DNA of 53,459 nt from a virus, in the IMG/VR virus record IMGVR_UViG_3300017987_000115, positions 1-53,459 of that record, one strand, 5' to 3'. Made by a program: the position numbers and the translations under genes. Under the pieces are notes generated by a model that was given only the letters and a program-made list of their open reading frames with translations, made no database searches and was not told where the DNA came from. Positions 967 to 40,948 of this stretch are shown here, piece after piece. Numbering within the stretch: the stretch's first letter is position 1; each line of letters opens with the position of its first letter.

Positions 967-1665
967 TTAAACTAAAACTAATTACAAATTACAATTGGCT
1001 AGGTTCGTGCACTTTTAATTTTTAAAACGTGAAGGTTTTGTTGATTGAAATTCAGTTCATTGAAGTTCGTTTCAAAATTTTCCATCACTCAGTTCGTGCA
1101 TCCCTTAACGAAAAACGTAAAACTAAATTTGATTTGAAGACGAATGTGCGAATTTTTTTCATTTTGAATTCCCATTTTTGGCACAGTTTTGGCTACAATG
1201 CAAAACTGTGCCAACTGGCTGTAAGGTTTTTGAAAATTTGAATGCAAATTGGCACAGTTTTTGTTAAGAAATGACATTTCAAAAATGTCCAAAATGATAG
1301 CAAACAGTGTGCCAAAAGTGGCAAAAAATGGTGAAAATCGCTGGTTAAAGTTTGGCGTTGTGAAAACTGTCACAATTGGCCATTTTTGGCCCCATTTTTG
1401 CTTCTTGTGCCAGATTTCACAAGTGGGGCAAAATTGCCCGCAAACACGGGAAAGACAAATTCCGGAAATTGTCACAAAACATGCGGCGAAATTTCGCTGT
1501 CAATTTCGCATATTTTTGCACACCGATTTTCAAAAAAGCCCGTTAATTTACAAAAGAATTTGCAAAAATCTTCAAAAAACTGTTGTTTTTTGGCTGTTTT
1601 TGACACATAATTAATATATGAAAACAACAAAAGCGCTGGAAAACAACAAAAAAGGAGACTGGAAA
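967..1665. other. Non-coding region rich in inverted and direct repeats
   Basis: I see no convincing gene in these roughly 700 bases: the short frames have neither ribosome binding sites nor protein-like composition. It contains repeats of TTGGCACAGTTTTG in both orientations (annotated separately), a 12-bp perfect palindrome GCGAAATTTCGC at 1486-1497 nested in a GAAATTG/CAATTTC inverted repeat (1465-1471 and 1501-1507), and a small hairpin GACATTT/AAATGTC at 1273-1289. A weak promoter-like pair, TTGGCT at 1590-1595 and TAATAT at 1612-1617 with 16-bp spacing, could drive the small-gene cassette that follows. The region may hold operators or an iteron-like replication or partition site. Confidence 0.5.
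1178..1263. repeat. TTGGCACAGTTTTG repeat: perfect hairpin plus direct copy
   Basis: TTGGCACAGTTTTG at 1178-1191 is matched by its exact reverse complement at 1201-1214, giving a 14-bp perfect stem with a 9-nt loop. A further direct copy with one extra T lies at 1249-1263. Degenerate versions follow near 1302-1316 (inverted) and 1362-1380. The spacing suggests protein-binding iterons or an RNA hairpin; the function is unknown. Confidence 0.7.
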
Positions 1666-1800
1666 ATGGAAAACTGGACACGGGAAGAATTCGACAGGGC
1701 CATGGCAGAAGCGTGGGTGCGGGCTTTGGATTTTCAAAACAAAAAACGCGCCCAGGTTTTGGCCGTGGCGGTTCGGGAAAACACTGGAAAGGAAAATTGA
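1666..1800 (+). CDS. Small hypothetical protein, 44 aa
   Basis: The start is set by AAAGGAGA at 1651-1657, about 8 nt before ATG 1666; an upstream in-frame ATG at 1618 lacks a ribosome binding site. The product begins MENWTREEFDRAM and is mostly helical and charged. It is the first gene of a cassette of small genes whose leaders share a GGAGA..TGGAAAATG pattern. No family is recognised. Confidence 0.55.
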   Translation: MENWTREEFDRAMAEAWVRALDFQNKKRAQVLAVAVRENTGKEN

Positions 1801-1802
1801 AA

Positions 1803-2114
1803 ATGAAAATCGGGAACAGGAAAATTTTGGTGGCGCTGTTAAACAAAATGGCGCGTGTGTCTTTGGAACGGGACGACGAAAATTTCGTTGTGTCCGAACC
1901 AGCGCCCAACGGTGTTTCTGCTGCAGCAGGAAACATGTTTGAACCGGACAACAGCGAAACCATTCTTTTGGCCGTGTGTTGGAAAGATGGTTTTGTTGCG
2001 CTGTTGGAAAAGAAAAACAACAAATGGAAAGTTTGTTGCACAAAACAAAAAGAAGAATGGGAAACACAAAACGACGCTGTCCGAAATTGGATTGGCGAAA
2101 TTTTCTGCTGTTAA
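1803..2114 (+). CDS. Hypothetical protein, 103 aa
   Basis: It starts 2 nt after the previous stop at ATG 1803, with GGAAAGGA upstream. The N-terminus MKIGNRKILVALL resembles the starts of the cassette genes at 3671 (IKIGNKKMVRV) and 2215 (KTKIGVLRI), both as protein and as DNA. A WKDGFVALLEKKNNKWKV segment suggests a small beta-sheet domain. It is followed by a strong hairpin at 2136-2167. Function unknown. Confidence 0.65.
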   Translation: MKIGNRKILVALLNKMARVSLERDDENFVVSEPAPNGVSAAAGNMFEPDNSETILLAVCWKDGFVALLEKKNNKWKVCCTKQKEEWETQNDAVRNWIGEIFCC

Positions 2115-2135
2115 AATGAAACACAACAAAAACAA

Positions 2136-2167
2136 AAACAGGACCGGCCATGGGGCTGGTCCTGTTT
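2136..2167 (+). terminator. Intrinsic-terminator-like hairpin, possibly bidirectional
   Basis: CAGGACCGGCC (2139-2149) pairs with GGCTGGTCCTG (2154-2164) across a 4-nt loop with one G-T wobble. A-rich sequence lies on the 5' side and TTT on the 3' side, so the structure could terminate on either strand. It lies 25 nt after a stop codon. Confidence 0.65.
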
Positions 2168-2214
2168 CAACTTTATATTTTGGTTTGGAAATAACAAAAC
2201 AGGAGAATGGAAAA

Positions 2215-2556
2215 ATGGAAAACGGGAAAACAAAGATTGGTGTGTTGAGAATTTTCAACAAACAGGACTGGTTCCAATACGAAGGCGCCACGGGCTGGGG
2301 CGACAGCGGGACATGGTGCGGAACAGGCGCGCCGTTTGTTGCAACACTGGCCGTGGGCGAAAGGGAAATGGAACTTTTGGTGGACAGCATGGGCGCCCAG
2401 CTGGTCTGGTGGAACGAAATAAAAGAAATTGAAACTGTTTGGGCAATTGACAAACCGGAATTCGAAAATCGGGAAACAGCTTTTGCAGTGGCCAGTGCGC
2501 TGTGTTGTTTCACCAGTGTTGTTGAATTTGAAAAGTTTGGTTTCGTGGAAATATAA
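2215..2556 (+). CDS. Hypothetical protein, 113 aa
   Basis: AGGAGA at 2201-2206 sits 8 nt before ATG 2215, which fixes the start; an ATG at 2207 is out of frame. The protein has a Gly/Trp-rich centre (EGATGWGDSGTW) and a C-terminal helix (ENRETAFAVASALCCF) like the domain end in other cassette members. It is flanked by hairpins on both sides and may form its own transcription unit. No family is recognised. Confidence 0.65.
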   Translation: MENGKTKIGVLRIFNKQDWFQYEGATGWGDSGTWCGTGAPFVATLAVGEREMELLVDSMGAQLVWWNEIKEIETVWAIDKPEFENRETAFAVASALCCFTSVVEFEKFGFVEI

Positions 2557-2569
2557 AAATGAAACACAG

Positions 2570-2604
2570 CACACGGCCAGCCTGTTTGGTGGGCTGGCCG
2601 TGTG
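2570..2604 (+). terminator. GC-rich hairpin after gene 2215-2556
   Basis: CACACGGCCAGCC (2570-2582) pairs perfectly with GGCTGGCCGTGTG (2592-2604) around a 9-nt loop. No U-tract follows; instead the motif CCAGCAATTCT begins directly after it. The same hairpin-plus-motif order recurs at 3237-3282 and 47102-47150, so it may be an RNA-processing or attenuator structure rather than a plain terminator. Confidence 0.6.
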
Positions 2605-2706
2605 CCAGCAATTCTTTAATTATGATTTTACAAAATGAAATCAAACAACACAGCGGTGTTGAAAATATAAATCGGGAAAAGAAAATTAAAAAGAAAGATT
2701 GGAGAA
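2605..2706 (+). repeat. Leader repeat, copy A
   Basis: This leader shares with 3272-3367 the motif GCAATTCT (2608-2615), TATGATTTT (2621-2629), a CAAACA.CAGC block, and a 32-nt identical stretch at 2660-2691 that contains AATATAAATCGGG. It ends at the ribosome binding site TTGGAGA. The conservation of non-coding sequence suggests a shared promoter or 5' UTR element copied between genes. Confidence 0.7.
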
Positions 2707-2713
2707 TGGTAAA

Positions 2714-3214
2714 ATGAAAAAGACTGGAAAGATCGAAACGATGGTTGTTTGTTGGCAGTGTGTTCAATCGTCTGCGTGTGACCACCACACACGGCTTGGC
2801 CACAAAGAAATTTCAACCGCTTACATTGACATGGAACATGGACAGGGCAGCCTGGTGTGTAACAGCTGCGGCCGCAAAATTGAATTTGGCCATTTCATGG
2901 TGCAACAGTGGTTGCGAGATTCGAAAAAGAAATTGGTGTACAAAAGAAATTCCAACAAAACAAAAAGCCTGGTAAGTTACAACGGATATGAAATTTTGAA
3001 ACAGCACCATTTTGAAAAACAGGACAGCACTGGTCGAAACGGTGCCGTGTTGTTTATGGAATATAAAGACGGCGGAGGTTTAAAGTTTGTTACAGCGGTG
3101 TTGTACAGAACGGGCAACAAATGGGACACCAGTTGGCACCAGGGCAACTATTTTGACTGTGCTGAAGATGCGAAAGAAAATTTTGACAAGCGCGTGAAAG
3201 CAAAACGCTGGTAA
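2714..3214 (+). CDS. Putative zinc-binding protein, 166 aa
   Basis: TTGGAGA lies 8 nt before ATG 2714. The N-terminal half has CWQC (about residues 13-16) and CNSC (about residues 52-55) with extra Cys/His between them (ACDHH), consistent with a treble-clef or zinc-ribbon module. The C-terminal part is a beta-rich segment (NGAVLFMEYKDGGGLKFVTAV) ending in a helix. It is preceded by leader repeat copy A and followed by a hairpin. No function can be assigned. Confidence 0.65.
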   Translation: MKKTGKIETMVVCWQCVQSSACDHHTRLGHKEISTAYIDMEHGQGSLVCNSCGRKIEFGHFMVQQWLRDSKKKLVYKRNSNKTKSLVSYNGYEILKQHHFEKQDSTGRNGAVLFMEYKDGGGLKFVTAVLYRTGNKWDTSWHQGNYFDCAEDAKENFDKRVKAKRW

Positions 3215-3236
3215 GAAGAAAAAAAATGAAACAGAA

Positions 3237-3272
3237 GCGTGTGGCCAGTCTGCCCCAGGGACTGGCCCACGC
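3237..3272 (+). terminator. GC-rich hairpin after gene 2714-3214
   Basis: GCGTGTGGCCAGTC pairs with GACTGGCCCACGC with one bulge. The GGCCAG/CTGGCC core is the same as in the hairpin at 2570-2604. It is followed by CCAGCAATTCT and no U-tract. Confidence 0.55.
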
Positions 3273-3367
3273 CAGCAATTCTAAAACTATGATTTTTGAA
3301 AACGGAAAAACAAACACAGCTGGCTGTGAAAATATAAATCGGGAAAAGAAAATTAAAAGATTGGAGA
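3272..3367 (+). repeat. Leader repeat, copy B
   Basis: This is the second copy of the leader at 2605-2706: GCAATTCT at 3275-3282, a TATGATTTT block, and the 32-nt identical segment at 3327-3358 (containing AATATAAATCGGG) directly before GATTGGAGA. The preceding hairpin is also homologous, so the unit 'hairpin plus leader' appears to have been duplicated as a block. Confidence 0.7.
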
Positions 3368-3374
3368 AATGAAA

Positions 3375-3674
3375 ATGTTAAAAGAACTTTCGAAAATGGA
3401 AGCCCATGAAGAACTTCGAAGGCTGTTGGCAGAAAACGCAATGGAAGATGCGCTGAAAGAAATTAACAATGCGCTGGAAGGAACGATTCGTGTTCAGCGT
3501 GAAATTTCCAGCGCACTGGAAAGAGCAAAAAGCGCAAAGCGTGTAAGCGAAATGGCAAATGTTGTTGATTCGCTTTTGATACAAATTCGCCAAACGCCTG
3601 GTTTGCTGAACAGCTGGAACTTGAATTGTGTTATGAGACGTCTTGACCAGAACAGTGGCGGAGAAGGAAAATGA
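3375..3674 (+). CDS. Helical hypothetical protein, 99 aa
   Basis: The second of two nearby ATGs (3375) is preferred because GGAG at 3363-3366 is 8 nt away from it; ATG 3369 is too close. The sequence is almost entirely alpha-helical with heptad-like Leu/Ala spacing (ELRRLLAENAMEDALKEI), suggesting a coiled coil. It overlaps the next gene by ATGA. Function unknown. Confidence 0.6.
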   Translation: MLKELSKMEAHEELRRLLAENAMEDALKEINNALEGTIRVQREISSALERAKSAKRVSEMANVVDSLLIQIRQTPGLLNSWNLNCVMRRLDQNSGGEGK

Positions 3675-3880
3675 AAAAGAAAATCAAAATCGGAAACAAG
3701 AAAATGGTGCGTGTGTTTGCTTGCATGGCAGACCAGTGTGACCAGTGCGAAAATCTTGGCCACGAATTTGGTACATATGACAGATGGGTTTGCAAACACA
3801 AACAGGGCAGGAAGCTTTTTGACAAACATGAAGATTTCGTTCGCTGCCCGTATTTCAAAAACGGTGAAAATGAAAAATGA
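3671..3880 (+). CDS. Small Cys-rich putative zinc protein, 69 aa
   Basis: Its start overlaps the previous stop and has GGCGGAGAAGG upstream. Five Cys residues (ACMADQCDQCENL, WVCKHK, VRCPYF) plus His could bind one zinc. The N-terminus IKIGNKKMVRV resembles the gene at 1803. It is followed by an ATGA overlap with the next gene. No family is recognised. Confidence 0.65.
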   Translation: MKKKIKIGNKKMVRVFACMADQCDQCENLGHEFGTYDRWVCKHKQGRKLFDKHEDFVRCPYFKNGENEK

Positions 3881-4158
3881 AAACAGTCGTTGTTAAAAAG
3901 GAAAAGCTGCTGTTTATAAATGGTGGCTGGGTGGGGCGATTTGAAAATGGCACAATGGCAATTTCAGTTTTGCCAAACGGCCATTTTGTTGCCCAAGTTT
4001 CGGTTGGCCCATTTCTGGAAACACCAAGTTTAGAAGTGGGCGTGTACAGAACACTTTCAAAAGCTGTTGCTGAAAGCAAAACGAAAATTAAAACCATTTG
4101 GAATGAAAGAGTCCAAAATGCGAAAAGGCTTTTGAAAAAGAAAGGTGTTCGGAAATGA
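3877..4158 (+). CDS. Hypothetical protein, 93 aa
   Basis: It starts at ATG 3877, overlapping the previous stop. It looks like a small beta-sheet domain (GRFENGTMAISVLPNGHFVAQVSV) followed by a helix and a basic tail (RLLKKKGVRK). The layout resembles the next gene's C-terminal half (FENGNWFATIDSHDEM), so the two may share a fold. It is in a tightly coupled run from 3375 to 4688. Function unknown. Confidence 0.65.
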   Translation: MKTVVVKKEKLLFINGGWVGRFENGTMAISVLPNGHFVAQVSVGPFLETPSLEVGVYRTLSKAVAESKTKIKTIWNERVQNAKRLLKKKGVRK

Positions 4159-4688
4159 AAACAAAGAAAATTCTGAATGCCGTGCGCAACAAACAGCACG
4201 GCCAGTGGTTGGAACTAAAATGGGACACCATGGCTTTGTACTGGAACGAAAAGCTGGTGCTGTTAACCGTTCGTTTTCTTCGTTCGTTTTTGGCAAACCG
4301 AAACGGTACAACAGCGCGTGTGTTTACCATTTTCCAAAATCGCCTTTTGCTGAAAAATGAAAAGCGTTTTGAATGCAAGAAAATGCCAGATGCGGTTCGC
4401 AAAGCCAGGCACTGGGGCGAACACGTTTTGAAGAAAATGGAAAACGGTTTGGACGAAAAGGACACGGCAGTGGTGCGCACAGTTTGCACCAGAAATTGGA
4501 ACCGTGTTTCCACAAACGCATACCAGAGAAGCCGTGGCCCAAAGGACGCCACTGTTCAGTTTGAAAACGGAAATTGGTTTGCCACCATTGACAGCCACGA
4601 CGAAATGGTGGAAGCAAAAACGTTTGAAACTCTTGACCAGGCCCAGCGCTGGTGCGATGGGAAACTATATAACAGAAAAGGAGTTTGA
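4155..4688 (+). CDS. Hypothetical protein, 177 aa
   Basis: Start ATG 4155 overlaps the previous stop (ATGA). The sequence looks like two tandem copies of a small beta-sheet plus helix unit: residues about 1-85 (WLELKWDTMALYWNEKL...) and about 120-175 (VQFENGNWFATIDSHDEM...TLDQAQRWCDGK). Similar units are seen at 622 and 3877, judged by eye. It has no catalytic motif that I can see. Confidence 0.65.
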   Translation: MKTKKILNAVRNKQHGQWLELKWDTMALYWNEKLVLLTVRFLRSFLANRNGTTARVFTIFQNRLLLKNEKRFECKKMPDAVRKARHWGEHVLKKMENGLDEKDTAVVRTVCTRNWNRVSTNAYQRSRGPKDATVQFENGNWFATIDSHDEMVEAKTFETLDQAQRWCDGKLYNRKGV

Positions 4689-4690
4689 AA

Positions 4691-5062
4691 ATGCCAAGAC
4701 TGGAATGCCAAGAATGCGGAAAGGATTTTTGCAGTGGTTGCGTGGGGTGGAAAAACAACCAGTGCGGTGGTTGCGAAATGCAAATGCAAATGCTTTGCAG
4801 AGAATGTTTGTATGGCCAGGAACCGAATTGCCGGAAATGTGAATTCCTGGTGGTGGACAGCGAAACCGGATATGAAAGTTGCCGTGTGATGGAAGAAAGA
4901 AACCACATACTGCCAATGGAAGAAATGGAATTGCATTTCGAACTCGGTGGTGTTTACTGTCCTTCTTTCAAACAGGTGGTAGACGATCTTGAAAAAGAAG
5001 AAAGAGAATACTTCAAAGAGGAAAGGGAAAAACAGGAAAAAGAATCTCGGACTTCTGTTTAA
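4691..5062 (+). CDS. Cys-rich putative zinc-finger protein, 123 aa
   Basis: AAGGAG at 4678-4683 precedes ATG 4691. The first 50 residues hold a dense Cys array (CQECGKDFCSGC, CGGCEM, CRECLY, CRKCEF), enough for two zinc sites in a RING-like or tandem-ribbon layout. The C-terminus is acidic and helical (DDLEKEEREYF). Phages use such small zinc proteins as transcription or host-takeover factors, but nothing here proves that. It ends the small-gene cassette and is followed by a strong terminator. Confidence 0.65.
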   Translation: MPRLECQECGKDFCSGCVGWKNNQCGGCEMQMQMLCRECLYGQEPNCRKCEFLVVDSETGYESCRVMEERNHILPMEEMELHFELGGVYCPSFKQVVDDLEKEEREYFKEEREKQEKESRTSV

Positions 5063-5070
5063 GAAAAGGA

Positions 5071-5107
5071 AGTTGGCCCATGCTGTTTTTGCGTGGGCCA
5101 ATTTTTT
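5071..5107 (+). terminator. Rho-independent terminator
   Basis: TTGGCCCATGC pairs with GCGTGGGCCAA (one G-T wobble) around a short T-rich loop and is followed by TTTTTT at 5102-5107. It closes the small-gene cassette ending at 5062. This is the clearest classical terminator in the window. Confidence 0.85.
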
Positions 5108-5194
5108 ATGAAAAGAAAATTGAAAAACGGAAATATGAAATTGGATGAAATGAAAAGGAATATGATATGAAATGTAAAAGAAAGAGAATTGGTT

Positions 5195-5314
5195 AACTCA
5201 AATGTTCCCCCCCCTCCCTCTGTTTCTTTTTAATTTAATTACTTGTGATTACGTTTGAATTTTAAAAGAAAAGAAAGAGAAGGAAAGGGGGGGGAGGGGG
5301 GAGAAGTTTGAGTT
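5195..5314. repeat. Long imperfect inverted repeat with C8/G8 runs
   Basis: AACTCAAATGTT followed by eight C, T, CCC (5195-5218) is mirrored by eight G, A, six G and then AAGTTTGAGTT (5287-5314). The outer 8 bp match exactly and the inner arms pair C-run to G-run. The G-strand has dense G runs that could also form a quadruplex. It lies 55 bases before the first packaging-module gene. Confidence 0.7.
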
Positions 5315-5369
5315 GAAGTTTAAGTGTGTGTTTTAAAAGAAATGAAAAGGAAAAAGAAAGGAAATGTAA

Positions 5370-5837
5370 ATGGTTACAAAGAAATTAAAAGTAAAAGTAA
5401 AAGTGAAAAGGAAAGTAAAAGGAAACAAGAAGAAAGTTAAAGGAAATAAGAAGAAACCAAATGCCGGTGGGCAAAGAACGAGAAACGATTTTAAAACTCG
5501 AAAGGAATGGAGAAGTTTCTGTAAAGGCAAGCGCATGGGGCGTAGAAGAAATGATATATTTTGGTATGGTTATAGACAAATCGGTGCGGCCATGGGTGTG
5601 GACGAACGAACACTGCGCCGTTGGATTTCTAAAGCGGGCATTTGTTTGCCAAGATGGTCTCCTGGCAAGACCGGGTCTGTGTTTCTTGGGAAGGCGCAGA
5701 TTCCGACATTGTTGGAAAGGTTGTTGCGGGCAAAAGTGATAAAACATATTGACACTTTGGAAAGGTTGTGTAAGATGGTAACATCGGCGAACACCACAAC
5801 ACTGGGCAGGTTTGAGAATCGCATGGACAGAAACTGA
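5370..5837 (+). CDS. HTH DNA-binding protein with basic N-terminal tail, 155 aa
   Basis: It starts at ATG 5370 behind AAAGGA. Residues 1-30 are almost pure Lys/Val/Arg/Gly repeats. Residues 66-90 form a clear helix-turn-helix (YRQIGAAMGVDERTLRRWI), as in small-terminase and transposase-type HTH domains. Being directly upstream of the small terminase and next to the long inverted repeat, it may recognise the packaging site, either as a second TerS-like protein or as a regulator of the late genes. Its exact role is not resolved. Confidence 0.7.
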   Translation: MVTKKLKVKVKVKRKVKGNKKKVKGNKKKPNAGGQRTRNDFKTRKEWRSFCKGKRMGRRRNDIFWYGYRQIGAAMGVDERTLRRWISKAGICLPRWSPGKTGSVFLGKAQIPTLLERLLRAKVIKHIDTLERLCKMVTSANTTTLGRFENRMDRN

Positions 5838-5838
5838 C

Positions 5839-6375
5839 ATGGGCAAGTACAGTATCGTTAAAGAAAATGTGGATGAAGATTTCATTCGCATGCCATGCCA
5901 GTTGCGCAAACGAATTGGAAAGTCGCAGAAAATAAAACTTACATGGCGCATGGTTCAAGAAGTGTTTCGTGTGTACGCACAGACACGCGATGTGCGACGC
6001 ACATGTAAGATATGCGGCATCACACGAACCAGATTTAATCGGCTGTGTGAGAAGCACAGGTGGGCGCAACGTTTGGAAGTTTTAGATTCGCGTGTGGCTG
6101 AACAGGCTGACATTTCATACGAACAGTTTACAAAACGGATTCTAAAAACATGCGCTGCTTTGTTGGATGGATATGACAATCAAATTCTTGAAGGAAAGCT
6201 TCCAAAACTTTCAGCAAAGGAATTAAAATTGTTGCAAGGTATTGTTGCCACCGGATTTGGAAAACCAACTGAACATACTGAACATGAACATAAAATCAAC
6301 AACATGTCAGACAAAGAACTTTTAGAAGAAGTGAAGAAGTTGAGATTGCAAATTGCTGGCGATGATATGGATTGA
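5839..6375 (+). CDS. terS: Terminase small subunit, 178 aa
   Basis: Small terminases bind the packaging site and load the large subunit. This protein has an HTH at about residues 50-75 (DVRRTCKICGITRTRFNRLC) followed by HRWAQRLE, the W..R pattern usual after TerS HTH domains. It has a helical oligomerisation middle and a C-terminal MSDKELLEEVKKLRLQI segment typical of the family. It starts 1 nt after the previous stop and lies upstream of the large subunit. An alternative in-frame start upstream (5812) lies within the previous gene and is not needed. The assignment rests on domain layout and position. Confidence 0.75.
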   Translation: MGKYSIVKENVDEDFIRMPCQLRKRIGKSQKIKLTWRMVQEVFRVYAQTRDVRRTCKICGITRTRFNRLCEKHRWAQRLEVLDSRVAEQADISYEQFTKRILKTCAALLDGYDNQILEGKLPKLSAKELKLLQGIVATGFGKPTEHTEHEHKINNMSDKELLEEVKKLRLQIAGDDMD

Positions 6376-6390
6376 CATTTGGATAGTTTT

Positions 6391-6594
6391 ATGAAACGTA
6401 TTTCATTTCACTCCCAGTTCACGAGGGGAATTCAACCCAAAAAAATCAATGTCAATGAATTGTCCAATTTTTTAAAATGTGCTTTTCCTGGGACCTCTTC
6501 ACAAAAATACATGGATTTTCGTCGCCGTCCCAAAATCACTAATGAAATTACTAATTTCGGTGCATGCATGAATTTTGCTGGGTGTTTGTCATGA
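6391..6594 (+). CDS. Small hypothetical protein upstream of large terminase, 67 aa
   Basis: The ATG at 6391 opens a frame whose TGA (6592-6594) overlaps the large terminase ATG at 6591. This coupling argues for translation, because TerL has no ribosome binding site of its own. The product is basic with a FRRRPKITNEIT segment; no family is known. No strong ribosome binding site is visible for this gene, and an upstream TTG (6379) is also possible. Confidence 0.45.
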   Translation: MKRISFHSQFTRGIQPKKINVNELSNFLKCAFPGTSSQKYMDFRRRPKITNEITNFGACMNFAGCLS

Positions 6595-8375
6595 CGCTTC
6601 ACCTTAAATCCCAAAAGCGTCAGCATAAAAAGCTATTTCTGCCTCGTAAACCCAAACCCAAGCGTAATCTCCGTAACCCATTACTTTTAATTGATCCGAC
6701 CACGTTGAAACATGATCAGCTCATACGGTACACTTCACTACTTCGTGAACATCGTGAACGTCAGGTAGCCAAAAATATTAAACTCTGGGCTATGAACCGT
6801 CGTTCCAACATATCTGAAAAACGTATATATCAATTCGAACCTCGATATCCATATCTCTCAGATATTTACACAGACCGTCACCATCAGTTGGTAGTGAAAA
6901 AGTCCGCTCAGTGTGGAATGTCGGAGTTCATGGTCACACAGGGTATGTGGCTATGCGATCATATGGCTCTCACTGCCTTATACATATTCCCAACGGCAGG
7001 TACGATGCATGATTTCGTTCAGCAGCGAGTTGATCAGGCAATATTGGTATCACCATACTTGCAATCTCGAGTTGGATTCCCTAACAATGACTCTTCCAAA
7101 AAATTCTCACGTGGACTACTCGTCTTTCGAGGTGGCTCCGAAACAAAGCATGTTAAATCAGTGGACGCTGATGCCGTATTCCTTGATGAGGTCGACGAAA
7201 TCGATCCCGAGATCGTATCATTAGCAGAACGTCGCGTAGGTGCCTCGTCTCTTAAGTGGCTTCGAAAGGTCTCAACTCCCTCTTTTCCAGATATGGGAGT
7301 TGATGCCGAGTTCCAAAACTCCACACAGTGTGAGTGGTTTATACGATGTCCCCATTGCTCCACTTTGCAACATATGGTCGGTGACCGTCTCATCAGTGAT
7401 GATCCTCGCCATCCTACCCCATACGTACAGTGCGAGAATCCACGCTGTCACCGACCTCTTAATCGTTTCGCCAAGGGCACTTGGGTTCCTGCTCAACGGG
7501 ACCCAACACTGCCGCATGGTTACCATATATCCAAACTTTTCTCCCCTGATTCTACACTGGAAGAGTTGGTCGCTGCATCCTTACAACTCGAGGAGTACAA
7601 ACGACAAACATATTATAACCAGGATCTGGGAGAAACATACACACCAAAGGGAGCTCGTCTTGACGAGGACATTCTCAATGAGTGCTGTATGCGTGGGTAT
7701 AAACTGTCAGGACGTTTAGATAAGCTTGCTTTCCAAACTCCTGGCCGAATATTCTTGGGAGCTGACGTAGGAACACCGCTGATTCATGTGAGGATATCCG
7801 TCTACTCCCAAGACTTCGAATCTAAACGAGCTCTGCACATTGGAACAGTTCGCTCTTTCCAAGAGCTCACAATCCTTTATAAGAAGTATCGGTGCACAGC
7901 TGGAGTAATAGACGCTCATCCAGAAAAACGGAAGGCTAGAGCTTGGGCTCAGAAGGTACCACACCGTCGGTTTGTTGCGTTGTTCATTGAAAGAGAAAAC
8001 GACGTTAAACCAGTTACAGTTCATCCTAAAGAAAATAGGGTTGATATAAATCGTTCGATGGTCATGGACACAATGACTGTTAGGTATATGTCAAAAAGGG
8101 TCGTCTTGCCTATAGACGCAAAACATATAAAAGGCTTCTACGCTCAGATGAAGTCTCCAGCTCGTGTTAACCGTTTAAACAAAGACGGTGAGACAATTTC
8201 AAAGTGGATTAGAACCAACAAGATCGACCACTACGCAATGGCTGAATGTTACGAAGAGTCTGCAGCCGAAATGGTCAAGCAAAAACTTATCTCAGGCCGC
8301 GATGCGGTCACAAACTCAACACTGTTGGAGCAGATGTTCCAGACTATGGGTAAGAGGGAATTTGAACATGCCTAA
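6591..8375 (+). CDS. terL: Terminase large subunit, GpA type, 594 aa
   Basis: This is the ATP-driven packaging motor and nuclease. Residues 102-112 (VKKSAQCGMSE) form the deviant Walker A typical of GpA-type terminases, residues 192-203 (DADAVFLDEVDE) form Walker B with the catalytic Glu, and a CPHC / CENPRC zinc pair spans residues 253-286. The RNase-H-like nuclease begins at about residue 387 (FLGADVGTP), with a further Asp in VIDAHPE. Length is normal for lambda gpA/GpA homologues. The start at 6591 overlaps the preceding small frame. The strand is noticeably richer in C/T than neighbouring genes, which hints at a separate origin. The identification is firm. Confidence 0.95.
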   Translation: MTLHLKSQKRQHKKLFLPRKPKPKRNLRNPLLLIDPTTLKHDQLIRYTSLLREHRERQVAKNIKLWAMNRRSNISEKRIYQFEPRYPYLSDIYTDRHHQLVVKKSAQCGMSEFMVTQGMWLCDHMALTALYIFPTAGTMHDFVQQRVDQAILVSPYLQSRVGFPNNDSSKKFSRGLLVFRGGSETKHVKSVDADAVFLDEVDEIDPEIVSLAERRVGASSLKWLRKVSTPSFPDMGVDAEFQNSTQCEWFIRCPHCSTLQHMVGDRLISDDPRHPTPYVQCENPRCHRPLNRFAKGTWVPAQRDPTLPHGYHISKLFSPDSTLEELVAASLQLEEYKRQTYYNQDLGETYTPKGARLDEDILNECCMRGYKLSGRLDKLAFQTPGRIFLGADVGTPLIHVRISVYSQDFESKRALHIGTVRSFQELTILYKKYRCTAGVIDAHPEKRKARAWAQKVPHRRFVALFIERENDVKPVTVHPKENRVDINRSMVMDTMTVRYMSKRVVLPIDAKHIKGFYAQMKSPARVNRLNKDGETISKWIRTNKIDHYAMAECYEESAAEMVKQKLISGRDAVTNSTLLEQMFQTMGKREFEHA

Positions 8376-11109
8376 AACAAGTAGAGTTCCGGGGTCGATG
8401 GCTCCGCTAAAGAATCCAATGCTCAACCGTGAGACAGCAATTTATTCTCTCGAGATATGGGACCTAAACAAACTCACGCCCTACAATCCCGACTCTCTGG
8501 TGCGAAAGAAGGGCATGCCTGTCTACCGTGAGATGGTGCAACGTGACGATGCCGTTAAGAGTGCACTGTTTACAAAGAAAGCCTCGCGTATGGCATCGGG
8601 CTGGGATTACTTGCCTCCAGACCCTGACGTTGAACCTCGTGGCGAGGAAATGGTCGCTTTTATAAAGCACAATTTCGAATGGATGAAAGGTACAGACTCT
8701 CAGATGATCTGGGATGTCATGGGTGCATTCGAATTTGGCTTTTCTGTTCTGGAAGAAAACTGGGCTGTTATAAAAGACGGTTCAAAATGGGAAGGAAAGA
8801 TCGGGACGTGGTCCATTAAGTCAAAAGACTCTGCCGACTTTGATCCTAAGATTGACGAATATGGTAATATGACTGGGATCATTCAAGGAAAAGGCACACA
8901 GTATCACCGAGACCTTGACGTTGAGAAGTTTATGTACCATGTAAACTTCTTTGAACGTGGGAACTATTACGGAAATAGCGACCTGCGTCCTGCGTATCGT
9001 CCTTATTATGTTAAGGATATGCTTACACGGTTCATGGGTATCTACTTTGAGAAGTATGCCATGCCGATCGCCATTGGAAAGTATCCTGTAGATCTCGTAT
9101 CTTCCGAAGAACCCAAGAGCGAGGGACAAGGTACAAAGAGTATGGCCGAGGCAGAGCGGGAACGTTTTGAGAAGGTACTCAAAAAGATCGCTACTGCAAC
9201 TGCGATGGTTATACCCAGCGACTATGAAGTTGACTTTGCGGAGTCACGTGGCCGTGGTGAGTCTGGATACTTAAACGCTTTTCGATATTTGGATATTGCG
9301 ATTGCACGAGCGATCTTGCTTCCTGCGCTTGTTACAGGGACGTCTGATACTGGTAAAGGAACGTTGGCTCAGTCACGTACTCACCAAGAGAGTTTCATGA
9401 ATGTGGTCATGATGCTTGCAGATCCTATCGAGACTACAATCAACGAGCAACTAATAAGAAAGCTTATAGATATTAATTTTGATAAACCAAAAGCTTACCC
9501 AAAGTTTAAATTCCGTGACTACGACAAGCAGATCTCGCAAAGGGTAGTTGACATATTTGATAAGTTAATTGCACGAGGTGTCTTGGATGAGTCAGACGCC
9601 AAATGGATTAGAAACCAAATCGGACTTCCTGAAAGACCGGAAGACGCTCCGCCTCCTAACTTCAGGTCTAGAGGCGAGTATGGTCCAGTGTCGACATCTG
9701 GAGGAGAGATCCTCGCTCCGGGTGGAGCTCCTGCAAAAGCTCCTACTCCCAGGCCTCGTCGGACCAAGAGAAGTTCTCCTGCGAAAGAGAAAGAAGAGTT
9801 CGCAGAAACATTAGGTAGAAATAACGGTCCGTATTCTGCAGGTCCTGGAGGAAAGTGCAAGTGCACAAAATGCGGGTATGAAATGTCCCATGATGCAGGT
9901 ACACCATGCACAAAGTTGAAGTGTCCGAAGTGTGGAGGTAAGATGCTTCGGAGCTCTCAATTCTCAGAGCAGCACTGCGATAGCATTGTAACTCTCGAAA
10001 GAGAGGAAGGATGTTATCCTGAAACACGTTCGTTCCTGGAAAACTCCGTTGCTGCCATGATGGAAGCAGAGTGTCCTCCTGAAGACTGGCCTGGAAAGAT
10101 GAATGCAACAGACTACATAGTTCATATCAATGATATATTTGAGTTTGCTGAAAAGACTGGACGAAAGTCAGATGCTGAACGGTTTAAAGCAGACTTAAAT
10201 ATGAAGCCAAGTCGTAAACTTAGTACACCTGAGAAGCGTGTTGATTACAACGGTATTCAAGCTTCGTGGCGTGCACTTATTGAACAGACTTTGGCTACAA
10301 TGACTAACAACATGGCACTTCTAAAAGATCAGATGCTTCCAAAGGTGAGGTCTTTGTATGAGAGAGGCGACGATCAAGCGTTTGATAGTTTGCAAGTTCC
10401 TTCAAAACCGATCTCTACGTTTAAGAATGCAGTAAATCAAATGTTTCTGACAGACTTTGTTCTTGGCTATAATAACTCTATCCAAGAGGTTGAAAAAGCA
10501 ACGGGCAAGGATCTTTCACAGTTTGCGGAGGTCGATGGAATACTCGCAGATCCGGCCGAAGCTCTTCAAGCTCTAACTCTCAAACGTCCTCGTCTTCGCA
10601 GGTTCCTGAAAACTTATTCCAGACGTTCCTTCACCATAGCTGGTGTTGAGAGAGCGAGGATTTTAAATGAGGCAAGACGGGTACTTGAAATCGGAGTTCA
10701 AAGAGGCTACTCTACTGACAGGGTCGTCCGTGAACTTGGAGCAGTGCTTGACAAATATACAGACCGACTTGTCAAGGGAGAGGTCGTCAAGCCAGGACGC
10801 CTTCAAACAATCGTACGTACTAATCTTAGTGAAGCGTTTAATACCGCCAGGCGTATGGCATTCGAAGACCCTGCGATATACCCTTATATAGGAGCGTATC
10901 AATATTCAGCTGTCATAGATCGAAAGACAACTGAGATATGCTTGGATTATGACGGTACGACTCGTCCAACCGATGACGCGATCTGGGATGTCATCTGGCC
11001 ACCTAATCACTTCTCATGTCGTTCAATGGTAGTGGCTTGGATGGAGGACGAGAACTTCACGTTTACAGATTATCCAACGTTGCCTCCACAGGAGGGTTTT
11101 GGAGTATGA
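8368..11109 (+). CDS. Portal (DUF935, Mu gp29-like) fused to zinc ribbon and MuF domain, 913 aa
   Basis: ATG 8368 overlaps the terminase stop. Residues about 20-470 match DUF935/Mu gp29 portals (AFEFGFSVLEENW, FFERGNYYGNSDLRPAY, YEKYAMPIAIGKY-like region). Around residues 495-531 there is a four-Cys zinc ribbon (CKCTKC ... CTKLKCPKC). Residues about 750-905 form a Mu gpF/SPP1 gp7 head-morphogenesis domain ending in the diagnostic CLDYDGT...WPPNHFSCRS. Portal and MuF are usually separate neighbouring genes, and here they form one chain. The portal forms the dodecameric DNA gate, and MuF proteins act in head assembly or are ejected. The domain calls are secure. Confidence 0.9.
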   Translation: MPKTSRVPGSMAPLKNPMLNRETAIYSLEIWDLNKLTPYNPDSLVRKKGMPVYREMVQRDDAVKSALFTKKASRMASGWDYLPPDPDVEPRGEEMVAFIKHNFEWMKGTDSQMIWDVMGAFEFGFSVLEENWAVIKDGSKWEGKIGTWSIKSKDSADFDPKIDEYGNMTGIIQGKGTQYHRDLDVEKFMYHVNFFERGNYYGNSDLRPAYRPYYVKDMLTRFMGIYFEKYAMPIAIGKYPVDLVSSEEPKSEGQGTKSMAEAERERFEKVLKKIATATAMVIPSDYEVDFAESRGRGESGYLNAFRYLDIAIARAILLPALVTGTSDTGKGTLAQSRTHQESFMNVVMMLADPIETTINEQLIRKLIDINFDKPKAYPKFKFRDYDKQISQRVVDIFDKLIARGVLDESDAKWIRNQIGLPERPEDAPPPNFRSRGEYGPVSTSGGEILAPGGAPAKAPTPRPRRTKRSSPAKEKEEFAETLGRNNGPYSAGPGGKCKCTKCGYEMSHDAGTPCTKLKCPKCGGKMLRSSQFSEQHCDSIVTLEREEGCYPETRSFLENSVAAMMEAECPPEDWPGKMNATDYIVHINDIFEFAEKTGRKSDAERFKADLNMKPSRKLSTPEKRVDYNGIQASWRALIEQTLATMTNNMALLKDQMLPKVRSLYERGDDQAFDSLQVPSKPISTFKNAVNQMFLTDFVLGYNNSIQEVEKATGKDLSQFAEVDGILADPAEALQALTLKRPRLRRFLKTYSRRSFTIAGVERARILNEARRVLEIGVQRGYSTDRVVRELGAVLDKYTDRLVKGEVVKPGRLQTIVRTNLSEAFNTARRMAFEDPAIYPYIGAYQYSAVIDRKTTEICLDYDGTTRPTDDAIWDVIWPPNHFSCRSMVVAWMEDENFTFTDYPTLPPQEGFGV

Positions 11110-14362: not shown

Positions 14363-14400
14363 AATGGACTCGAGGCTTTTCGGAGTCTCGAGTCCATCCC
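14363..14400 (+). terminator. Hairpin terminator after major capsid gene
   Basis: TGGACTCGAGGCT pairs with AGTCTCGAGTCCA (one G-T wobble) around a 6-nt loop. It is followed by the T/C-rich stretch ATCCCTTCCTTT. An AT-rich 75-nt leader then precedes the next gene and may hold a promoter, though no good -35/-10 pair is visible. Confidence 0.7.
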
Positions 14401-14480
14401 TTCCTTTGTAATATTACTTTTACTTGTTGTGTTTGCAATGTTAATGATATTAGCGTTGAATAAAAACTAGGAGTTTGGAA

Positions 14481-14876
14481 ATGTCAAGGTATGTGAAAGT
14501 CCTGTTGGACGGTCTCACAATCGGAGCGTCAGTATGCATGAAAGACGAGGTCGTGAAAGATCCTCCTGATATCATCTTGGAAATGGCGAAGGATCCGAAG
14601 AACACAAAGGTAAAAGTGGCTTCAGAAAGAGAGGCTCGCAAGGCCGCGTATGTAGTCGACGCAGTGACCACTACCAGAGAAGCTCAAAAAGAAGATCCTA
14701 CCGACCTTACAGTCAAAGATAAGGACGGCGTCAATCATAAGGTGAAAGACGACGACATTTCAGACGATGACGAGAAGCCGAAAAAGAAGAAAAAATCCAA
14801 GGCTTCCAAGAAGAAGGTTGTCAAGAAAAAGAAAGTGATCAAGAAGAAAAAGAAGAAAAGGTCTGACGACGAATAA
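14481..14876 (+). CDS. Structural-region protein with poly-lysine tail, 131 aa
   Basis: AGGAG at 14469-14473 precedes ATG 14481 by 7 nt. The first 60 residues resemble the short beta-strand proteins often found after phage capsid genes (VKVLLDGLTIGASVCMKDEVV). The last 40 residues are acidic and then almost pure lysine (KPKKKKKSKASKKK). The gene at 21488 has the same plan, a small N-terminal domain plus a Lys/Glu/Ser tail. Function unknown; DNA binding by the tail is inferred only from charge. Confidence 0.65.
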   Translation: MSRYVKVLLDGLTIGASVCMKDEVVKDPPDIILEMAKDPKNTKVKVASEREARKAAYVVDAVTTTREAQKEDPTDLTVKDKDGVNHKVKDDDISDDDEKPKKKKKSKASKKKVVKKKKVIKKKKKKRSDDE

Positions 14877-34594: not shown

Positions 34595-34615
34595 GTTTGG
34601 CCGTTAAAATTCCTG

Positions 34616-34644
34616 TTGCTTTTGTTGGTGTGTTGTTGTATAAT
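34616..34644 (+). promoter_or_regulatory. Sigma-70-type promoter
   Basis: TTGCTT at 34616-34621 and TATAAT at 34639-34644 are separated by exactly 17 bp. The -10 is a perfect consensus and the -35 matches four of six. The start of transcription would be near 34651, giving a short leader that includes the GGGAGA ribosome binding site of gene 34674. It probably drives the early replication module. Confidence 0.8.
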
Positions 34645-34673
34645 AACGTTTGTCATTGAAGGGAGATTGTAAA

Positions 34674-34880
34674 ATGAAAAGACTGGTTCGTTATTTGTTT
34701 TCTTGTTTGATTTGGAAGTGCGAAGTTTCTTTTCATGAAGAGACAGGCACGTGGTTCTATAATTGCACAAGTCGATTTAAGAAGAGAAAACCTTTTCCAC
34801 GTTGTGTTTCAAAGCATGGAACCAATTTTGATTCGAAGCGTGAAGCTTTGGGTGCCATGAAGAGGGCACTGGTAAATTAA
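34674..34880 (+). CDS. Small hypothetical protein, 68 aa
   Basis: GGGAGA precedes ATG 34674; the frame upstream lacks a ribosome binding site. It is Cys- and Lys/Arg-rich (LIWKCEVSF, YNCTSRFKKRKPFPRC), with possible zinc-binding or disulfide Cys. It is the first gene behind the promoter at 34616. No family is recognised. Confidence 0.6.
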   Translation: MKRLVRYLFSCLIWKCEVSFHEETGTWFYNCTSRFKKRKPFPRCVSKHGTNFDSKREALGAMKRALVN

Positions 34881-36019: not shown

Positions 36020-37542
36020 GGATGGTACTTAGGTTAAAACGGCGTAGGGTTTTCCAGTCTTCCCAACGCCGACTCTCTTCGCCTGAGCGTCAAGAGGGGG
36101 AGCCTTTTTCCCGGAGGCTCCCCCTACCTCACCAGTCCGAAGCACTTGACTACGGTGAGTTGCTTCGAGAGATTGCGTTGTTTATGGAAATGAGACTGGG
36201 AAAGACTATGGTTGCCATACGTTGGTTGCTTGCAAAAGGCGACGCGCTGTTAAACCTAATAGTGGCACCGTTGTCTGTTTTGTATGTATGGAAGGAAGAG
36301 CTTGCGTTGGAAGGTATACACAACGTTTATATACTGACCGGTTCACAAGAAAAGAGAATGGAAATTATAAAGAAGCATAAGAACGGTTGGTTTCTTTGTA
36401 ACTATGAAGGTCTTACGATTAATAAGAATAAGAAAAAAGGTACACCACGCCGTCCGTCTCAGATCCTCATCAGGCAGTGGGACAGTATTATTCTGGACGA
36501 GTCTGTTCGCATTAAAAGTCCCAAGGCATTCATAACTATTTGTCTGTTAAAGCATTCGTATGCAAAGTACAAAGCAATCTTGACCGGTCTTCCCGCTCCA
36601 GAAGGTCCTCAGGATTATTTCTGTCAGATGAAATTTTTGCACGGTGGGTTCATGGGAGAGTCGAATTATTGGGCTTTCATGAACAGGTACTTTAGAAAAG
36701 ATTTCAAAGGTTGGAATTGGACACCTCATCACAACACAAGAGTTAAGATCAAAGAGTGCATTCACGAAAAGGCTTTTGTAAGGACAAGGAAACAAGCAGG
36801 TATTGGTTCCCCAAAAATATATGAAAAGCGATATGTTGAAATGTCTTCGAAGCAGAAGAAAGCTTACAATAAACTTGAAGAGCAGTTTATTTATGAGGCA
36901 TATGACAAGACAAAAGAGACAAAGTGGATCACCACTAATATGATATGGCTGGCAAGACTGGCTGGAGGATTCGATCCAGACGGTGATAAGGTATCAGACG
37001 AAAAGATAAAAGAATTGCGTAGTCTTTTGGAAACGGAATTAAAAGAGGAAAGTGTTGTAGTATGGTTTAGATTCAACAAAGAAATTAAAGAAGCTTTGAA
37101 GTATCTGAAAAAGAAGATCAAGAAAAAAAATATATCCTGCCACTACGTAGCAGGCGATAATAAAAGCCAACGTGATGAGATAATATCGGAGTTCCAAAAA
37201 GGAAAGTTTAGAGTATTACTCTTCCAGATTAAGTGTGGACAGTACGGTATTAAATGTTCGAGAGCGTCTACAGCTATATACTTTTCAAATAACTATGACT
37301 TTAATGATAGAAGACAATCCGAAGATCGTATTCTTCACATGGAAAAGAAAGAGCCTTTGTTGTATATTGATTTAATAACAAAGGGAACTATTGACGAAGC
37401 AATTGTGAAGGCTCTTAGAGAAAAAGGAGCAACAGCGTCATACTTTATGTCAAGGCTTTTGCAGAATTGGAAAACAGACTTCTATGCTAAGGTTAAAGAG
37501 AAAGAAGAAGAGAAAAGGAAAAAGAAGGTTCATATCAATTGA
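36016..37542 (+). CDS. SNF2/DEAD-like helicase, about 508 aa
   Basis: SF2 helicase: the PHQSEAL Q-motif-like element (about residues 38-44), Walker A in EMRLGKTM (residues 58-65), a Walker B of DESV type (LDESVRIK), and late helicase motifs (LLFQIKCGQYGI; QSEDRILHME matching motif VI Q..gR). It could unwind or remodel DNA during replication or repair. The start is a GTG at 36016 with AGGG 5 nt upstream, or ATG 36022. The N-terminal 40 residues are basic and Y-rich in DNA composition and contain two stem-loops, unlike the rest. Confidence 0.85.
   Translation: MRMVLRLKRRRVFQSSQRRLSSPERQEGEPFSRRLPLPHQSEALDYGELLREIALFMEMRLGKTMVAIRWLLAKGDALLNLIVAPLSVLYVWKEELALEGIHNVYILTGSQEKRMEIIKKHKNGWFLCNYEGLTINKNKKKGTPRRPSQILIRQWDSIILDESVRIKSPKAFITICLLKHSYAKYKAILTGLPAPEGPQDYFCQMKFLHGGFMGESNYWAFMNRYFRKDFKGWNWTPHHNTRVKIKECIHEKAFVRTRKQAGIGSPKIYEKRYVEMSSKQKKAYNKLEEQFIYEAYDKTKETKWITTNMIWLARLAGGFDPDGDKVSDEKIKELRSLLETELKEESVVVWFRFNKEIKEALKYLKKKIKKKNISCHYVAGDNKSQRDEIISEFQKGKFRVLLFQIKCGQYGIKCSRASTAIYFSNNYDFNDRRQSEDRILHMEKKEPLLYIDLITKGTIDEAIVKALREKGATASYFMSRLLQNWKTDFYAKVKEKEEEKRKKKVHIN
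36041..36125. repeat. Tandem hairpins within the helicase 5' coding region
   Basis: GGCGTAGGG (36041-36049) pairs with CCCAACGCC (36062-36070) with one mismatch. AGGGGGAGCC (36095-36104) pairs perfectly with GGCTCCCCCT (36116-36125) over an 11-nt loop. Both lie in the sequence coding for residues about 9-37 of the helicase and could block or delay translation or act as a structural insert. Confidence 0.65.
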
Positions 37543-38002
37543 TCCCGGTCTTGGTGGAACAGGATGGTCGGTCTTTGATAGGGACGTTGGAAAAGTTCCG
37601 ATTGAAGTTGGAATTATAAATAGAAGAAAAGGACACTGGTCTCACAGAGCGTTTATGATTGCGTACGGCATTGTGGAAATATGTGAAGCGTTGGAGGTCA
37701 GAGATTTGTACTGTGAGTATCCAGCTTTCTGGGACACTGTTGCTGGTACAATGGTTGCAAAGAGGGGAGACCTTTTAAAGTTGACGTTTCTTGTTGGTGT
37801 AATATGTGCGATACCGTTCGCATCTGTCAAGTGTTTGAAGAACTTTGAATTGGTTCCGGTTATAAAATGGAAAGGTCAGTTGAAAAAGAACGTTGTTATT
37901 GCCAGAATTTTGGCAAAGCTTGGAAAAGAAGCTTGTAAACGTTTTAGACTTCACATATGGGACGCTGTCGGTATTGGACTTTATAAACTGGGGTTGTTTT
38001 AA
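37484..38002 (+). CDS. RuvC-like Holliday junction resolvase, 172 aa
   Basis: RNase-H-fold resolvase: Asp20 in FISIDPGLGGTGW (residues 16-28), a central Glu in DLYCEYP, and a C-terminal Asp in LHIWDAVGIG. Together these give the acidic catalytic set of RuvC-like nucleases. The start ATG 37484 lies 59 nt inside the helicase gene and gives a basic N-terminus; no better start exists downstream. It would resolve branched replication or recombination intermediates before packaging. Confidence 0.8.
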   Translation: MLRLKRKKKRKGKRRFISIDPGLGGTGWSVFDRDVGKVPIEVGIINRRKGHWSHRAFMIAYGIVEICEALEVRDLYCEYPAFWDTVAGTMVAKRGDLLKLTFLVGVICAIPFASVKCLKNFELVPVIKWKGQLKKNVVIARILAKLGKEACKRFRLHIWDAVGIGLYKLGLF

Positions 38003-38214
38003 TGGTTACAGAATGGTACTGTGAAGTATGTTGGTGTAATTATTGGACTGATCCGTCATTTAGAATTGAGATATTGGGAAATCACGAAGGAAAAAATGAC
38101 GGAACCAAATTGTGGCTGTGTGTTTGTAAAAACTGCATGTTGGAGATAGTCGAGGAGTGTGAATGGAAGAGCGAGATCGCAATTAGTATTAGAAAAAATT
38201 TAAGGGGAGAGTAA
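38002..38214 (+). CDS. Small Cys-rich zinc protein, 70 aa
   Basis: It starts at ATG 38002 overlapping the previous stop. Two Cys clusters, CEVCWC at residues 7-12 and CVCKNC at about 40-45, could hold one zinc ion. The rest is acidic (VEECEWKSEIA). One of a dispersed set of small Cys-pair proteins in this phage. Function unknown. Confidence 0.6.
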   Translation: MVTEWYCEVCWCNYWTDPSFRIEILGNHEGKNDGTKLWLCVCKNCMLEIVEECEWKSEIAISIRKNLRGE

Positions 38215-38502
38215 ATGGGAGCGTACATTAATCCAAAGGGAATGGACAAAGAGGCTTGGCTTGATTTACACGGTAAACCTACGTGTGAAGAGAGCGTTTT
38301 ATATCACAAACCATTCGACGGTGGGTTGGTTGCTGTTTGTTTGGTTAACAATGGGCCGTTTACTGCAGCAGCTATCTTATTCGACGAAAGGGAGAAGAGA
38401 GACTTTAGTGGTCCGCATGATGCGAGACCCAAACAATGGTACTTTGTTGACGTTGAAGAAGTTAAAAACGTTTCAAATTTGGAGTGTTATATAAAAGACT
38501 GA
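38215..38502 (+). CDS. Hypothetical protein, 95 aa
   Basis: AGGGGAGA precedes ATG 38215. Small mixed protein (GGLVAVCLVNNGPFTAAAILFDE...) with no family match that I can recognise. It sits in a string of four short genes between the resolvase and ligase. Confidence 0.6.
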   Translation: MGAYINPKGMDKEAWLDLHGKPTCEESVLYHKPFDGGLVAVCLVNNGPFTAAAILFDEREKRDFSGPHDARPKQWYFVDVEEVKNVSNLECYIKD

Positions 38503-38514
38503 AAGGAGAGAGCA

Positions 38515-38790
38515 ATGAGTTTTCAAGTCGAAAACGTAACCGGGAAAAAAGTGATGAGCGTCAACGTTAGTCTGAGAGGGAATTTTTTAAGTGTGGGCAT
38601 GGACATATATTCAAACCGTTACAAGAGGCTCGCTACAAAGCAAATGAACAATCCAAACAGAACGCCTCCGACTCACTACGACAGTTTTACAATGACACAC
38701 GAACAGGCACTGATGCTCGCTTCTCTTATCTTAAAGAAGGCAGGGGACTTGGCAGACGAAGACAACTTTGATTCGAGGGACATACAATGA
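38515..38790 (+). CDS. Hypothetical protein, 91 aa
   Basis: AAAGGAGAG precedes ATG 38515. A beta-sheet N-terminal half (VSLRGNFLSVGMDIYSN) and a helical C-terminal half (HEQALMLASLILKKAGDL). It overlaps the next gene by ATGA. Function unknown. Confidence 0.6.
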   Translation: MSFQVENVTGKKVMSVNVSLRGNFLSVGMDIYSNRYKRLATKQMNNPNRTPPTHYDSFTMTHEQALMLASLILKKAGDLADEDNFDSRDIQ

Positions 38791-39017
38791 GTATCCCAAT
38801 AGCTCCAAAGTTTAAAGTAATAGCATGTGTAGGTCCGTATCAAATACTTAAAGACGACAAAGGTTTTTTCAGGGTTAAGCTTCCAGGCTATCCGATTAAA
38901 GCTGTCGAGTTTTTAACTGCCGACAAAGCCAAGTTTCAAGCAAGGAAAGCTTTGGAAAAACTACGTGCGGACGGTAAGCTGAAAGCCAGCTCGTCTGAAA
39001 GATACTGGAGACCGTGA
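38787..39017 (+). CDS. Hypothetical protein, 76 aa
   Basis: It overlaps the previous stop. Its pattern (YQILKDDKGFFRVKLPG... FLTADKAKFQARKALEKL) is a short beta hairpin followed by a helix, as in other small proteins of this genome (e.g. 3877). Function unknown. Confidence 0.6.
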   Translation: MSIPIAPKFKVIACVGPYQILKDDKGFFRVKLPGYPIKAVEFLTADKAKFQARKALEKLRADGKLKASSSERYWRP

Positions 39018-39018
39018 C

Positions 39019-40236: not shown

Positions 40237-40247
40237 GGAGAAGAGAG

Positions 40248-40520
40248 ATGATAGGTAAAGTAATTAAATGGGAGCAGTTGAATTATGAAGGGACCGTGTT
40301 TCAATTTACGTACGGGCCTTTTATCTTTCAGGTGAACACGCCGTGTCCCACTATATCGATCTACATGCCAGACGCTTGTTTCCTACCCAAGAGTTTGATC
40401 AATAATAAAGAAAGAGTTTTGGTGCGTATCTTTGAACGCAACTTGGGTCAAGTATCGTGGAAGTCTTTCAATGAAACTGTTGAAAGGTTTCTGAAGACTG
40501 TCTATGGAACAGACTGCTAG
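40248..40520 (+). CDS. Hypothetical protein, 90 aa
   Basis: AAGGAGAAGAGAG precedes ATG 40248. Beta-rich with a C-terminal helix (NETVERFLKTVYG). No family is recognised. It lies between ligase and nuclease genes. Confidence 0.6.
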   Translation: MIGKVIKWEQLNYEGTVFQFTYGPFIFQVNTPCPTISIYMPDACFLPKSLINNKERVLVRIFERNLGQVSWKSFNETVERFLKTVYGTDC

Positions 40521-40543
40521 GTTGTTTAGTTAAGGAGAGTACG

Positions 40544-40948
40544 ATGTCGGAAGAAAGACAAACATTCAAACTACGTTTCCAACCGGGTGACCTTGCTTGG
40601 ATCGTTAACAAAGACGGTTGGGTTCAGCTTGTTATAGTTCGTTCTGTTCATTGTTGTGAAGACGGATGCACATACTCGACTATCGGCATGTGTGGCGAAA
40701 GTATAAAGCTCAAAGACCGCAATGTAACAGATGCAGATATACTCCACTTTGACGATTGCAAAATACCTGGAGAATGGTGGAGGACAAACCTTTACTATGC
40801 AAAGGAAAAACTTATCGCCCATTGGAACGAAAACTACAAAAATCGTACAGACTTTGGCGATACAGAAGAAGATGAATGGATTGGGAAAGAAGATTATCCA
40901 ACTTATAGGCCAGGCGAACATCCTACAAAGGTGGTGGATCCGAGATGA
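40544..40948 (+). CDS. Hypothetical protein, 134 aa
   Basis: AAGGAGAG precedes ATG 40544. The N-terminal part looks like a small beta domain (FQPGDLAWIVNKDGWVQLV) with several Cys (HCCEDGCTYSTIGMCG), resembling an SH3-like or KOW-like fold. The C-terminus is acidic and Pro/Tyr-rich. It overlaps the next gene by ATGA. Function unknown. Confidence 0.6.
   Translation: MSEERQTFKLRFQPGDLAWIVNKDGWVQLVIVRSVHCCEDGCTYSTIGMCGESIKLKDRNVTDADILHFDDCKIPGEWWRTNLYYAKEKLIAHWNENYKNRTDFGDTEEDEWIGKEDYPTYRPGEHPTKVVDPR

Follow-up and report, generated by a model that had tools for sequence, protein, structure and literature searches.

A duplicated hairpin-and-leader module among the small accessory genes of a tailed phage as candidate stop/start punctuation

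What do the strong hairpins and long leaders that separate small genes in this phage genome do? The sequence-only reading had proposed that every small gene has a terminator and promoter/leader of its own, a cassette-like organisation suited to gene exchange. We analysed the locus within the whole IMG/VR virus genome entry (53,459 bases, hereafter the window), a tailed phage by gene content, which carries genes for terminase (6564), portal (8368), major capsid (13284), tape measure (23446), endolysin (29788), a predicted helicase (36016), a Sak4-like annealing protein (45269), DNA polymerase (47781) and primase (49921). For the terminase, portal, capsid, tape measure and polymerase, the matches are to broad phage families, and those to named phages are weak. 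The predicted helicase frame contains a GC-rich 13-bp hairpin at its 5′ end (36095–36125), and the true helicase start may be further downstream than the predicted frame start. Positions 37781–53459 are identical to a contig from a second sample (L012), and 5349–10895 are matched at 99.98% by a contig of the same phage from another sample (L010). The record and L012 stop at the same base, 53459, past which reading frames seem to continue; this shared end is either a physical terminus or a common assembly break.

The accessory cluster (1618–5062) consists of about nine small genes running rightward on the plus strand, which four intergenic hairpins divide into the blocks 1618–2114, 2215–2556, 2714–3214 and 3369–5062. 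Between hairpins 1 and 2 lies a gene of 113 codons belonging to no family (2215–2556), followed by a gene for a 166-residue protein with a cysteine-rich N-terminal part (2714–3214), which has copies A and B of a duplicated module on either side as direct repeats. The last block (3369–5062) holds five small genes that abut or share an ATGA overlap and are not separated by hairpins, so that a terminator and promoter/leader for every small gene is not what the cluster contains. No cluster gene had a match in PHROGs, PADLOC or Pfam above cut-off, and no relative of the accessory proteins was found in viral contigs, genome contigs or phage records, L010 from the same phage excepted. Compared with one another by BLAST, the cluster proteins show weak similarity (best E about 0.02), on which ground we rejected a set of paralogous accessory proteins. 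GAA makes up 98% of glutamate codons in the cluster versus 58% elsewhere in the genome, CTC makes up 1% of its leucine codons, and TAG, CTA, CTC and GAG are all strongly depleted; such deviating codon use reflects either acquired DNA or different selection. Upstream of the cluster, about 600 nt (1000–1600) contain no convincing gene and repeat TTGGCACAGTTTT in direct and inverted orientation; they possibly serve in replication or control. In the stretch that separates the cluster from the packaging genes, a C run and a mirrored G run lie inside the inverted repeat AACTCAAA...TTTGAGTT (5197–5315), just past which contig L010 begins.

The three intergenic hairpins with a GGCC core that had been noted from the letters alone proved real, and a fourth had been missed. 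Hairpin 1 (2136–2167) has 14 bp and −25.6 kcal/mol (z −7.3 versus dinucleotide shuffles), hairpin 2 (2569–2605) has 14–15 bp and −32.7 kcal/mol (z −4.7), hairpin 3 (3237–3272) has 13–14 bp with one bulge and −26.6 kcal/mol (z −4.7), and hairpin 4 lies at 5067–5107; every one of the four is intergenic and has the GGCC core. Counting hairpins with at least nine uninterrupted pairs, at least six of them G-C, we observed four in 1600–5110, against a mean of 0.12 and a maximum of 1 in shuffles. ATGAAACA lies upstream of hairpins 1, 2 and 3, giving plus-strand units at 2116–2167, 2559–2605 and 3226–3272. Between hairpins 2 and 3, 4 of 13 pairs are doubly compensated, nine are unchanged, one bulge is present and no pair is broken, and these double compensatory changes indicate that the stems are kept as RNA structure. 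The proposed terminator role fared unevenly: a GC-rich stem-loop followed directly by a U-tract is found at 5067–5107, where hairpin 4 with its true T-run is, judged by its sequence, a standard intrinsic terminator closing the cluster, whereas U is not abundant in the plus-strand tails of hairpins 2 and 3 (33rd–37th percentile of the region); the U-tract of hairpin 1 is weak. Rfam 15 gave no match above gathering score in the whole window, and sub-threshold matches alone in 1600–5200. Integron attC-like sites were set aside on inspection, the stems being short, uninterrupted and devoid of attC-type extrahelical bases.

Hairpins 2 and 3 are part of a non-coding module, some 170 nt long and present in duplicate (2555–2723 and 3222–3385; 75.7% identity over 173 aligned nt) that flanks 2714–3214. 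To this extent the idea of hairpin-plus-leader units stood, but hairpin 1 does not belong to it, having in common with the other two only ATGAAACA and the GGCC core and being followed by a short, unrelated leader of 47 nt without GCAATTCT. The order within the module is hairpin, GCCAGCAATTCT, five variable nucleotides, TATGATTTT, a small stem, an invariant 32-nt block and a ribosome site. In copy A, on the plus strand, the two boxes occupy 2604–2629 and mark a possible start site, the small stem CAACAC/GTGTTG (2646–2661) adjoins the 32-nt block (2660–2691), and block plus ribosome site (2660–2713) reach up to the ATG at 2714. The corresponding plus-strand elements of copy B are the boxes at 3271–3296, the stem CACAG/CTGTG at 3315–3328, and the block (3327–3358) with its ribosome site (3327–3368), up to the ATG at 3369. 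The block is identical in both copies, as the sequence-only reading had stated, and identity resumes after a 5-nt gap and continues through the ribosome site AAAGATTGGAGAA. With 21 differences placed at random over 88 aligned positions, a difference-free run of 32 nt has P = 0.0003, and the block is therefore constrained or was recently converted. GCCAGCAATTCT and TATGATTTT are likewise identical in the two copies, the leader from there to the block mostly differs, and the small stem is present in both with differing sequences. Sequestration of the ribosome site by AATTCT was considered and rejected: copy A could form this long-range pairing, but the outer pairs are disrupted in copy B, whose ribosome site is the same. 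The search for the block in related phages, suggested along with the original observation, returned chance matches alone for an 18-mer, none after a strong hairpin, and no relatives of the module were found in the collections searched. Elsewhere in the genome, a hairpin 3′ of the major capsid gene, then a pyrimidine-rich tail and a long leader with GCAATGTTAATGATATTA (14364–14481), make up a layout resembling that of the duplicated module.

GCAATTCT had been reported after two hairpins, and it does occur right after hairpins 2 and 3 (at 2608 and 3275); beyond the range first considered, a further hairpin-GCAATTCT is present at 47102–47139. There the plus-strand arrangement hairpin-GCAATTCT-N4-TATAAT (47102–47149) lies upstream of the gene preceding the DNA polymerase, and the U-tract of the hairpin is weak. 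A start from this TATAAT (47144) would fall beyond the ribosome site, which weakens the promoter reading for this copy. GCAATTCT alone is not rare, with five matches versus 2.3 expected, and its placement is the unusual part: the 53 kb contain exactly three instances of GCAATTCT-N3..6-TATRAT, each on the coding strand, in an intergenic region and 2–4 nt past a strong hairpin. The suggested promoters found less backing, since the TATGAT boxes of copies A and B have no −35 at the usual spacing and the best promoter-like matches are weak. DNA searches for the GCAATTCT-TATGAT string and for GCCAGCAATTCT-TATRAT returned chance-level matches alone, none with a strong hairpin before it. At 34600–34674, TTGCTT-17-TATAAT ahead of a small gene is a good sigma-70 type promoter, so host RNA polymerase is the likely enzyme at that site; a search of the record for Sigma70_r2 found no such domain.

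Relatives of the polymerase were found in 44 other viral contigs, at 26–49% identity; in 20 of these relatives the terminase was not found. A strong hairpin directly follows the counterpart of gene 46130–47080 in 13 of about 20 distinct loci of distant relatives. These hairpins are of unrelated sequence, and their tails are enriched in U (56 T in 130 versus 26 expected, a count not attained in 20,000 random draws). Only 7–41 nt separate the hairpin from the next ATG, too little for a promoter, so the hairpins in the equivalent place would act without one, and judging from their tails they look like weak terminators or 3′ ends. Within the gene before the polymerase operon, tandem-like internal repeats occur at 46530–46850, and many distant relatives have repeats at this position too.

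The reading that we prefer, and to which we give about an even chance of being right, is that the hairpins are intercistronic partial terminators or 3′-end stabilisers, two of which come with their own leader and a probable start site. With hairpins 2 and 3 lacking U-tracts and the TATGAT boxes lacking a −35, the terminator and promoter roles are ones that we infer. Each hairpin would set the 3′ end of the message before it, by partial intrinsic termination, by blocking 3′ exonucleases or by both, and would lower read-through rather than abolish it. In the two full modules, TATGAT after the hairpin would provide a weak or activator-dependent start, giving the next gene a separate message that has a stem at its 5′ end, then an A-rich leader and a strong ribosome site, and the duplication would allow different expression levels of neighbouring blocks. 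Consistent with such punctuation, the hairpins are intergenic and beyond chance, their stems are compensated, the block and boxes are kept by sequence, all three GCAATTCT-TATRAT pairs follow strong hairpins, and hairpins with U-enriched tails recur in the relatives; against it stand the non-U-rich plus-strand tails of hairpins 2 and 3, the missing −35, the position of TATAAT at 47144 relative to the ribosome site, the short distance from hairpin to ATG in the relatives, and the occurrence of just two full module copies with no independent relative. Taken together, the elements look like ordinary phage start/stop punctuation in a previously unseen sequence family. The direct repeats around 2714–3214 and the deviating codon use of the cluster suggest cassette exchange, as far as sequence features go. 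Identical stretches could in principle serve recombination, although nothing here shows such use.

Some of the same observations would also fit hairpins that act in RNA processing or stability only, a single through-message being cut or trimmed at them while the leaders serve as translation enhancers (5′ stem, A-rich block, ribosome site) and no promoter is involved. The absent −35, the poor U-tracts of hairpins 2 and 3, the position of the 32-nt block beside the ribosome site and the hairpins of the relatives, which lie directly before a ribosome site and leave no space for a promoter, all point this way. Retention of GCCAGCAATTCT and TATGATTTT while most of the intervening leader is not retained fits DNA recognition instead, and the U-enriched tails in the relatives fit terminators; we regard processing alone as somewhat unlikely, though a serious contender. 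A more specific proposal, which we consider improbable, makes hairpin-GCAATTCT-N4/5-TATRAT one composite signal, in which a terminator hairpin would be fused to a −35-less promoter helped by a phage factor; this signal would serve both the accessory cluster and the polymerase operon, and its duplicates would allow single genes to be inserted or lost.

Another possibility is that the inverted repeats are DNA operators for a phage regulator rather than RNA hairpins. This has been proposed for the extended start-associated sequences (ESAS) of cluster K mycobacteriophages, imperfect 17-bp inverted repeats that lie right upstream of a start-associated sequence (SAS) at a subset of small non-structural genes, and whose authors favour an operator reading for their own repeats (PMC3203893). 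The present palindromes similarly stand beside conserved start-associated boxes, with several copies in one genome. An operator would be expected to keep its sequence, however, and hairpins 2 and 3 vary in sequence yet keep their pairing by double changes, the opposite of the ESAS, whose consensus arms do not support RNA pairing (PMC3203893); we consider operators very unlikely here. Just as doubtful is the view that hairpins 1–3 terminate leftward, minus-strand transcripts, perhaps small antisense RNAs arising from the leader, with ATGAAACA read as a U-rich tail (TGTTTCAT). The minus-strand tails do outscore the plus-strand tails, ATGAAACA stands ahead of all three hairpins, and TTTTAA-16-TATATT matches on the minus strand within the 32-nt block. 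The cluster is A-rich on the plus strand, however, hence minus-strand tails are T-rich everywhere (84th–98th percentile of the minus background); there is no convincing minus-strand gene, and ATGAAA is the usual start context in the cluster. Least probable of all, and rejected, are short translated leader genes coupled to the next gene by stops overlapping its start (2559–2717, 52 codons; 3226–3372, 48 codons): both frames are open and stay in register where the two copies share blocks, and their final ATGA resembles that of real gene pairs in the cluster, but the 21 leader differences fall 6/8/7 over the codon positions with no third-position bias, so that the leader is not maintained as protein. 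In addition, the two arms of the stems covary as RNA, the ribosome sites of these frames are weak, and in a region so poor in stops long open frames often arise by chance.

The preferred punctuation reading invites comparison with known systems. Like intercistronic terminators and 3′-stabilising stem-loops, the present hairpins are GC-rich and lie between a stop codon and the ribosome site that follows; they differ in that hairpins 2 and 3 have no U-tract and are coupled to a duplicated leader. Like the SAS/ESAS pairs, the module has inverted repeats just before a conserved start-associated sequence, but its hairpin arms vary between copies with pairing kept. A scan for the 13-bp SAS consensus GGGATAGGAGCCC gave one minus-strand match with two mismatches, where chance predicts 0.3. 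The hairpin before the polymerase operon, conserved in distant relatives, indicates that hairpin punctuation is old in this phage group.

Closest in layout are the promoter early stem-loops (PeSLs), on which the primary work is reportedly that of Arbiol et al. in 2010 and Comeau et al. in 2014. Papers citing that work describe PeSLs, also termed composite promoter-terminator motifs, as mediating shuffling in T4-type phages (PMC4503421, PMC5931544). Like them, the module combines a stem-loop with a promoter-like box in one composite intergenic element, recurs among the small genes of a plastic region, and has copies that flank a gene as direct repeats. Of the PeSL combination of stem-loop and sigma-70 early promoter, the stem-loop and a −10-like TATGAT are present and the −35 is absent. 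The module also differs in lying in a phage that is not T4-type by any gene match here, no T4-type structural genes being recognised among the proteins scanned; in having two full copies and one partial copy without a recognisable early promoter with a −35; and in that no related phage was found here in which shuffling could be seen. By this analogy, the module resembles PeSL cassettes in layout and is not a member of them. If it works as proposed, it would be a PeSL-like stop/start cassette in a phage without recognisable T4-type genes, in which hairpin structure rather than sequence is what is conserved, and cassettes of this kind would then seem to originate again and again where gene clusters are plastic.
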